From positions 1 through 41,204 of the forward strand of contig JAICJQ010000011.1 of assembly GCA_025928335.1 (NCBI GenBank): a stretch of 41,204 nt of DNA. The letters run 5' to 3'. This document shows, piece after piece, positions 20,962 to 22,553 of the stretch. Position 1 is the stretch's first letter. Every line of letters begins with the position of its first letter. This stretch comes from Gemmatimonadaceae bacterium. Lineage in GTDB: Bacteria > Gemmatimonadota > Gemmatimonadetes > Gemmatimonadales > Gemmatimonadaceae. Under the pieces are notes generated by a model that made no database searches, was not told the DNA's origin, and saw only the letters and a list, made by a program, of their open reading frames with translations. The position numbers and the translations under genes are program-made.

Positions 20962-21458
20962 CGCGGGGACTGCTCGCCGGACTGGCGGCATCTCTGGCGA
21001 TAGCACTGACGCCGGCTTCGTCATGGTCGCATCCGCTTCACACTACTCTGGCCGATGTCTCGATCGACACCGATGGCTCCTGTCGCGTGACGCTACGCGC
21101 GTTCGCCGACGATTTCACGGCCGCGGTCGCACGGCATGCCGGGAAGCCCAGACCCGCGGATTTCGTGGTCGCCGAGCGCGATGTCGCGACGTATGTGTCG
21201 TCGACGATCGTCATTCGGGGTCGAGACGGCCGAATCGTTCCGCTTGTCTGGGCTGGCGCGCGACGCACGGGAGATCTCATCTGGATCACGGTACGCGCTT
21301 CCAGCGTTCGCTCCCTTGCAGGCATTCGTTTCGTCTACTCGACGCTCTTCGAGGCGTTCCCGGATGAGGTGAACATACTCCAGGCGAACGACAACGGCCG
21401 CCGCCACACGGTGCTGTTCACCGCGAGCGACGGCCGATCGTTCAAGACAATTCTTTAA
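20955..21458 (+). CDS. DUF6702 family exported protein
   Basis: A 167-residue protein starting at the GTG at 20955, overlapping the HupE stop. Signal peptide VTRGLLAGLAASLAIALTPASSWS, with the mature chain beginning HPLHTTLADVSID. That HPxHxS/T-type start is typical of DUF6702 and of the domain often found fused to, or next to, HupE proteins. Beta-strand pattern throughout (CRVTLRAFADDF, GDLIWITVRASSV, IRFVYSTLFEAFPDEVNILQ, HTVLFTASDGRSFKTIL). The N-terminal histidines could bind metal, which would suit a metal-handling locus; this is inference. Its TAA stop lies in a TTAA shared with the stop of the convergent gene at 21455. Confidence 0.75.
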   Translation: MVTRGLLAGLAASLAIALTPASSWSHPLHTTLADVSIDTDGSCRVTLRAFADDFTAAVARHAGKPRPADFVVAERDVATYVSSTIVIRGRDGRIVPLVWAGARRTGDLIWITVRASSVRSLAGIRFVYSTLFEAFPDEVNILQANDNGRRHTVLFTASDGRSFKTIL

Positions 21459-22036
21459 CGAGTGTCCAGCCCGGGTGCCTGCCGAAGCTCGTCCTGGCCG
21501 ATTTCGCGAAGGTCGGCGACCTTGGGCGGCTCGCCGGTCACCATGCCCTTCACCACCTGGAAGAGCGCGAGCGGCATCGAACGATTGTTCTTGGAGTAGA
21601 CCACGGTGTCGGCCTCGACGAGGATGAGCGCGATCCGCGGATCGTGCGGCCCACCGTCGCGCTTGCCGTCGCCCTCGTCGCCCAGCCAAGCCTTCCAATC
21701 AGCCTTGTACAGCGAATCGATGAGATCGCGGTCCTTGCTGAGGATGGCGTGTCCGCTCACGCTCACCCACTCGCGCGTTCGGTCGCGGTAGAACGCGACG
21801 TTGACGTGGGGATCGACGGCGAGCTCTTCGAACTTCTCGGACTCGGCGTTCGTCATGAACCACAGGTCGGCACCGGCGGTCCGCCGCTGCGTCTGCATGG
21901 CCCGCGAGACGAGCGTGCCATCGCGGCGACGCGTTGTCAGCATCGCCGTCTCGATGCCGTCGATCAGCGCGTAGAGGTCGTCGAGCTTCTTCTCGAGCGG
22001 AACTTCGTTGTCGCGGTTTTTGTCGGTCGCATCCAT
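21455..22036 (-). CDS. Pyridoxamine 5'-phosphate oxidase-fold protein (general stress protein 26 type)
   Basis: A 193-residue cytoplasmic protein of the split-barrel flavin-binding fold. Landmarks: LDDLYALIDGIETAMLTTRRRDGTLVSRAMQTQ (cited as core AMLTTRRRDGTLVSRAM), DLWFMTNAESEKFEEL, NVAFYRDRTREWVSVSGHA and KAWLGDEGD. These match the general-stress-protein-26 group, which binds FMN or FAD; true pyridoxamine phosphate oxidases are longer and have other active-site residues. It follows the peroxiredoxin gene by 31 bases on the same strand, so a redox or stress role in a shared transcript is plausible. The substrate is unknown. The convergent neighbour shares the TTAA with its stop codon. Confidence 0.85.
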   Translation of the reverse strand: MDATDKNRDNEVPLEKKLDDLYALIDGIETAMLTTRRRDGTLVSRAMQTQRRTAGADLWFMTNAESEKFEELAVDPHVNVAFYRDRTREWVSVSGHAILSKDRDLIDSLYKADWKAWLGDEGDGKRDGGPHDPRIALILVEADTVVYSKNNRSMPLALFQVVKGMVTGEPPKVADLREIGQDELRQAPGLDTR

Positions 22037-22067: not shown

Positions 22068-22553
22068 TTACGCCTTGCTGAGCACGTTCAGTGCCTCGAT
22101 TACTTCTTCCCCATGGTTTTCCGGCTTCACCTTTTCGAAAACCCGCGCGATGCGTCCTTCGGGATCGACGATGTACGTCGTCCGCAACACGCCCATGTAC
22201 TTGCGCCCGTAGTTCATCTTCTCGCCCCACACCCCGTACGCCTCGGCGATCGCGTGATCCTCGTCCGCGATCAGTGTGTACGGCAGCTGGTACTTCTGCT
22301 TGAACTTGGTGTGCGACTTCGGCGAGTCGGGACTCACACCGAGAACGACCGCGTCGATTCCCTCGAACCGAGGGAAGGTGTCCCGAAAGGAACACGCTTC
22401 GATCGTTCAGCCGGCGGTGTCGTCTTTCGGATAGAAGAAGAGGACGACGTACTTGCCCCGGAAGTCGGCGAGTGAGACAGGAACGCCGCGGTCGTCGGGC
22501 GCGGTGAAGTCCGGCGCCTTTCTTCCGGCTGGTATCACAGTCGGGTTGGTCAT
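22068..22553 (-). CDS. Bcp-type peroxiredoxin, probable selenoprotein (UGA at codon 49)
   Basis: A 161-residue peroxiredoxin of the Bcp/PrxQ class, which reduces hydrogen and organic peroxides in the cytoplasm. The frame runs from ATG 22553 to stop 22068 with one internal TGA at 22409-22407. Before it is KYVVLFFYPKDDTAG and after it TIEACSFRDTFPRF in the same frame. Relatives read FYPKDDTPGCTKEAC, so the TGA sits exactly on the peroxidatic cysteine. The resolving Cys54 is kept, as are LGVSPDSPKSH and the C-terminal thioredoxin-fold strands. Two hairpins follow the TGA (see separate entry). I therefore call Sec49 rather than a pseudogene. A point mutation TGC/TGT to TGA or a sequencing error remains possible. 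Conventional calling would give two pieces, 22407-22553 and 22068-22337. No clear ribosome binding site precedes the ATG. Confidence 0.8.
22358..22395 (-). promoter_or_regulatory. Tandem hairpins downstream of the in-frame UGA (SECIS candidate)
   Basis: On the minus strand, 11 bases after the TGA, GTGTTCC / GGGACAC forms a 7-bp stem (one G-T pair) with loop TTTC (22395-22378). One base further, TTCCCTC / GAGGGAA forms a 7-bp stem with loop GGTTC (22376-22358). Bacterial SECIS elements lie in the coding region just after UGA and often show G or GGU in the apical loop. The first hairpin has the better spacing, the second the better loop. Which one SelB would bind is not decided here. Confidence 0.5.

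Follow-up and report, generated by a model that had tools for sequence, protein, structure and literature searches.

A Bcp-type peroxiredoxin gene of Gemmatimonadaceae with a probable selenocysteine codon at the peroxidatic position and a candidate two-hairpin RNA signal

Selenocysteine (Sec) takes the place of the peroxidatic cysteine in some bacterial peroxiredoxins. In the parts of the literature used here, the peroxiredoxin (Prx) selenoprotein is catalogued under COG1225 (Bcp) with the motif TxxU (PMC9312934), the Sec-Prx motif is given as PxxxTxxU (PMC13188914), 43 Sec-Prx genes are reported in the Sargasso Sea set (PMC1088965) and 91 Prx selenoproteins are reported in 78 organisms (PMC5029168). 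Prx-SUH is also listed as a selenoprotein in the sections used of PMC13188914. The premise of the original prediction, that Sec can replace exactly this Cys, therefore corresponds to an established selenoprotein family. The protein described here has the same domain, Sec position and motif as the COG1225 Sec-Prx, but its host belongs to the Gemmatimonadota. The term 'gemmatimon' is absent from the main text of PMC13188914, PMC12013277, PMC1794560, PMC9312934 and PMC5029168. A literature search combining selenoprotein or selenocysteine with Gemmatimonad names returned no paper on this gene among the matches listed, and the portions used of PMC3281104 and PMC8318568 do not treat this bcp gene.

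The window, the whole stretch of 41,204 nucleotides from a Gemmatimonadaceae bacterium that was analysed, corresponds to contig 176 in a draft genome of 4.52 Mb and 79% completeness. A single minus-strand frame of 161 codons broken only by a TGA at codon 49, flanks matching the Bcp active-site block and a resolving Cys kept five residues on had been described from this DNA, and all three are confirmed at 22553..22068, where the TGA is the only internal stop. The features of the locus are:

22068..22553, minus strand: bcp/prxQ gene of the putative selenoprotein, 161 codons, ATG start assumed, TAA stop
22407..22409, minus strand: in-frame TGA, codon 49, at the place of the peroxidatic Cys, presumed Sec codon
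22392..22394, minus strand: TGT, Cys54, putative resolving Cys, in the 5' arm of hairpin 1 (below)
21455..22036, minus strand: pyridoxamine-5'-phosphate-oxidase-like protein (PF16242, 2.2e-28)

The residues around codon 49 are FYPKDDTAG-U-TIEACSFRD, in which the PxxxTxxC/U motif is present as PKDDTAGU49. With U scored as C, the read-through protein matches PF00578 at 4.7e-43 and, with 160.6 bits, exceeds the cut-off of 140 for the Bcp equivalog PRK09437 of NCBIfam (NF006960). Among solved structures the closest in sequence is 5enu (1.5e-36), and several of the next entries bear the name bacterioferritin comigratory protein. The best named protein match is from a Gemmatimonadetes MAG, and three of the six best are from Gemmatimonadetes or Gemmatimonadaceae MAGs. 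PrxU (NF040737), the selenoprotein of Eubacterium acidaminophilum, and Prx-SUH (NF045827) are related peroxidases, but this protein reaches 69 of the 270 bits needed for the former and 19.4 of the 298 needed for the latter, and since both scores fall far short it lies outside these two families.

The pyridoxamine-5'-phosphate-oxidase-like gene begins 31 bases downstream of bcp on the same strand, and a neighbour of this PF16242 type was matched in 7 of 30 bcp loci searched, this locus included. It is possible that the two genes are co-transcribed, but the neighbour has no part in the recoding. Promoter and terminator scans gave no signal above that of shuffled sequence.

When 288 genomes of the order were searched, at least 159 had a bcp match at 1e-40; 150 orthologues were read from 159 genomes with a match, nine being left out. 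Residue 49 is encoded by UGA in 28 of the 150 and is Cys in 122, with no other residue, which is the Cys/Sec alternation that had been anticipated for close homologues. The TGA of the window is thus accompanied by the same codon in 27 further genomes of the order and is neither chance nor a lone sequencing error. An error of sequencing or assembly at 22407-22409 is also at odds with the window's own downstream DNA, which has hairpin 2 of the UGA forms, and as an explanation it is hardly credible.

A decaying pseudogene is the other explanation that would dispense with recoding: a nonsense mutation would have struck a Cys-type bcp that is no longer made whole, and TGA is indeed one base away from TGC and TGT. 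Against this, the UGA recurs among the orthologues, and in the 28 UGA copies no further stop before the last three aligned codons was flagged. Median Ka/Ks among the UGA forms (378 pairs) is 0.33 before the UGA (330 usable values) and 0.30 after it (334 usable values), with 0.29 for the stretch that holds the hairpins. It is as low past the UGA as ahead of it, which points to continued selection on the codons beyond. The UGA forms also have RNA folds that are absent from the Cys forms. The probability that the gene is a pseudogene is therefore close to negligible.

Eight other genes flagged for TGA, in G348, G328, G337, G443 and G319 (class-level) and in G181, G209 and G220 (order), were rejected as Sec forms. 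They have Cys at codon 49, and their first later stop is a TGA at query residue 156-159, where the gene ends. Two loci from organisms named as Gemmatimonadaceae (L047 and L048) are identical over the 54 bases from the UGA to G005 and G145 of the family of the window (f1), and f1 is very probably Gemmatimonadaceae.

All four components proposed as a check on Sec decoding, selA, selB, selC (tRNA-Sec) and selD, are present in the genome that carries the window, each over its family cut-off:

C118:1657-3477: selB, 356.9 bits, cut-off 242
C38:4058-4151: tRNA-Sec, 74.5 bits, cut-off 47, anticodon UCA
C210:1718-3040: selA, 558.3 bits, cut-off 268
C38:3034-3954: selD, 372.3 bits, cut-off 125

Because related genes also match these families, giving matches in 59 of 59 genomes for selB and tRNA-Sec and in at least 58 of 59 for selD, only matches over the cut-off were used for these three. 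The full Sec system bears on the proposal that the UGA is read as something other than Sec, either as Trp through a changed code or as Cys through a mischarged or near-cognate tRNA. The non-UGA relatives do have Cys at this position; however, Trp is found there in 0 of the 150 orthologues, and the RNA after the UGA fits SelB-dependent decoding. Reading as another amino acid is very improbable, although some Cys may be inserted at codon 49 via the Sec route at low selenium.

The machinery in the genome, the orthologue column, the Ka/Ks values and the SECIS-like hairpin all favour the decoding of the UGA as Sec. Judged from sequence, the gene almost certainly encodes a thiol peroxidase of the Bcp/PrxQ type with Sec as its peroxidatic residue, the UGA being decoded via SelB and the downstream RNA. 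In the mechanism proposed, SelB with Sec-tRNA(Sec) would decode the codon-49 UGA under the direction of an RNA signal that lies within the coding sequence shortly after this codon. The Sec49 selenolate would attack the peroxide and would then be joined to Cys54 in a selenenyl-sulfide, to be opened by a thioredoxin-like reductant.

Among the matches listed, selA is present in 24 of the 28 UGA carriers and in 64 of the 122 Cys carriers (Fisher p 8e-4, kinship ignored). For genomes at least 90% complete the corresponding figures, also among the matches listed, are 15 of 15 and 44 of 79 (Fisher p 4e-4, kinship ignored). The four UGA carriers that have no selA among the matches listed are drafts of 72-82% completeness. 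With relatedness allowed for there was no trend, in a comparison that had only four well-supported independent pairs and thus no power. Since 64 Cys carriers also have selA, the gene does not predict Sec in this enzyme. Across the order, selA was matched in at least 190 of 288 genomes at 1e-30 and in at least 187 of 288 over the cut-off. The Sec trait is thus widespread here, and the order uses Sec broadly. None of the selA matches listed in the order-wide search comes from genus g22.

The selD gene of the same genome, which adjoins tRNA-Sec (L246, C38:2500-4700), carries a TGA within its frame as part of the motif CAGUAAKLGP, and SelD is probably itself a selenoprotein here. No clear SECIS was found for it, the 66-base folds from three genomes disagreeing among themselves. 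Rfam at the gathering score found tRNA-Sec alone in the window and L246.

Other peroxiredoxins with UGA were also encountered. A second, distant one of the AhpC/TSA type is present in the same genome (L165, C85:2300-5000, near C85:3324-3710), with UGA in the same column and the block FFPKARTKGUTVQMEAYRDQ. This type was read in six other loci (L250-L252 and L257-L259), while L254 has a close variant of it, and the C85 paralogue and most of the relatives read have one hairpin with its loop approximately 21 bases from the UGA. A further type, FYPGNNTPGUNRQLSAVRDE, again with UGA in the same column, was found in three genomes (L253, L255 and L256). Viral contigs gave three distant or partial matches.

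The RNA following the codon-49 UGA can be drawn as two successive hairpins, with positions counted from the T of the TGA as 0:

22376..22398, minus strand: hairpin 1 (proximal), +11..+33, loop UUUC in this genome, putative spacer hairpin
22359..22375, minus strand: hairpin 2 (distal), +34..+50, 7 bp, loop GUU, putative SelB-binding SECIS hairpin
22366..22368, minus strand: apical GUU of hairpin 2

Folding of the 54 bases from the UGA, expressed as z against synonymous recodings, separates the two kinds of gene. The mean is -2.34 in the UGA forms, with 28 of 28 below -1, and -0.13 in the Cys forms, with 21 of 122 below -1. Over the 28 UGA genomes, 87.3% of cells are paired in hairpin 1 and 99.5% in hairpin 2 (7 pairs), counts that are favoured by the structure having been drawn from the same sequences. 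Independent of how it was drawn are the contrast with the Cys forms and the double-sided changes in hairpin 2, which number 13, 10 and 1 at three pairs. The loop of hairpin 2 is GUU in 27 of the 28 UGA forms and AGUUC in one. The motif of this hairpin, CCYCGGTTCGRGG, is present in 27 of the 28 UGA forms but in none of the 122 Cys forms. At +39, 27 of the 28 UGA forms have the codon CGG, while the Cys forms with Arg there use CGC (46), CGG (20), CGA (12) and CGT (1). The best 54-base fold is two successive hairpins in 24 of the 28 UGA forms. In the other four (G016, G154, G266 and G279) the best fold is a single long hairpin that pairs the UGA with the loop side of hairpin 2, and hairpin 2 itself is not formed.

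Section 5 of PMC13188914 gives rules for bacterial SECIS: a stem of 4-16 bp, a loop of 3-9 nt with G in the first two places, an MFE of -7.5 or lower and 16-37 nt from the UGA to the apical loop. The hairpins were tested against these rules one by one, each folded on its own. In the window hairpin 2 agrees in stem, loop and energy (7 bp, GUU, -11.0), and with its spacing at the edge it fits the rules in all 28 UGA forms, whereas only 2 of the 122 Cys forms do so. Hairpin 1 fits them in 3 of the 28 UGA forms and 18 of the 122 Cys forms, no more often in the former than in the latter. The distance from the UGA to hairpin 2 is 37 counted to the closing base or 38 to the loop, at the upper end of the published 16-37 or just beyond it, which weighs somewhat against the reading.

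The SECIS of E. coli needs a fixed short distance between the UGA and the upper stem. Hairpin 1 is read as a spacer because, without its 22-23 bases, the distance of 38 falls to approximately 15-16, near the usual place. A composite, lineage-specific SECIS is tentatively put forward, at somewhat less than even confidence, in which a proximal spacer hairpin of approximately 22 bases brings a distal, SelB-binding hairpin with a GUU loop into reach. The spacer would fold out at the ribosome entry, the linear distance being about as long as the known range allows, and a switch with the long UGA-pairing hairpin may be part of the mechanism. Hairpin 2 is like the bacterial consensus in loop, stem and energy, but section 5 of PMC13188914 mentions no interposed hairpin, whereas here hairpin 1 lies between the UGA and hairpin 2. 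The Cys54 codon lies within hairpin 1 and is paired in all 23 UGA forms that keep this Cys. In the five UGA forms without it, the new codon is fully paired in four and paired at two bases of three in one. On the composite reading the enzyme chemistry and the RNA structure would be tied together, since the resolving-Cys codon sits inside the spacer hairpin.

Sec might also be inserted with the help of another RNA shape, with hairpin 1 as the SelB-binding SECIS or with the long hairpin, in which GAAC pairs with GUUC, hairpin 1 forms the cap and the UGA is at the base. In the seven rows listed the loop of hairpin 1 is 15-18 bases past the UGA, near the usual distance and similar to that of the single hairpin in most of the Sec-Prx paralogues. 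The long hairpin is the best fold in four UGA forms. All 28 UGA forms could make its four innermost UGA pairs and none of the 122 Cys forms could, a contrast that follows from the codon itself. Its UGA-pairing columns give no covariation support because they hardly vary. The loop of hairpin 1 varies: an early G with adequate stem and energy is found in 7 of 28 UGA forms and 27 of 122 Cys forms, and adding the spacing gives the low counts above. These points, with the rule-based contrast for hairpin 2, the prevalence of the two-hairpin fold and double changes that keep the pairs of hairpin 2, make the other shapes rather unlikely.

The Sec-type Bcp genes read from beyond the order (L060, Pyrinomonadaceae, and L116) have folds that differ from the two-hairpin layout. 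So far the layout is thus seen in family f1, in its 28 UGA forms, the search beyond that family having been small. When an RNA model of the signal (R1) was searched against 59 genomes the top matches were bcp genes, the UGA forms first and then the Cys forms, which match because of their related sequence; the control search used 42 sources, a subset of the Cys forms. The best match outside bcp (29.8 bits, G036 C226:9318-9397; L278, 619-698, minus strand) has a rightly placed TGA in an open frame. It encodes no nameable protein and is probably a chance match in GC-rich DNA. Five weaker matches scored 18.5-26 bits on rescoring.

The history of the residue was followed on a tree of this one short gene, built with residue 49 masked. 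The best tree has nine Sec/Cys changes (9-10 over bootstraps), of which at least four are forced by well-supported branches. A single origin of Sec was rejected, a single Sec clade being excluded by the AU test (p 2.8e-5). Many losses may account for the repeated change, as may gene transfer or a number of gains favoured by the peptide PRFEG. Cys members nested in genus g5 keep a mean of 5.0 of the 7 hairpin-2 pairs (n=5), against 3.8 in those nested in other Sec clades (n=5) and 3.18 in other Cys forms (n=112), and this retention favours losses in genus g5.

The resolving Cys is absent from 5 of 28 UGA forms and from 1 of 122 Cys forms. The five UGA forms (L016, L017, L126, L153 and L159) have Ser in four cases and Val in one, and from their sequences it is possible that they are 1-Sec enzymes. 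The idea that Sec leads to loss of the resolving Cys was considered and set aside: the five changes on the tree reduce to two well-supported independent pairs, from which nothing is shown.

The enzyme family is already known, but the SECIS layout is possibly new. Where the TGA is taken as a stop, a bcp gene of this kind is dropped or split. Close relatives have Sec and Cys in the same enzyme, and some of the Cys forms keep part of the hairpin. This family therefore allows direct tests of how Sec is gained and lost and of whether a resolving Cys is needed beside it. If functional, the two-hairpin layout would widen the targets for bacterial SECIS searches.
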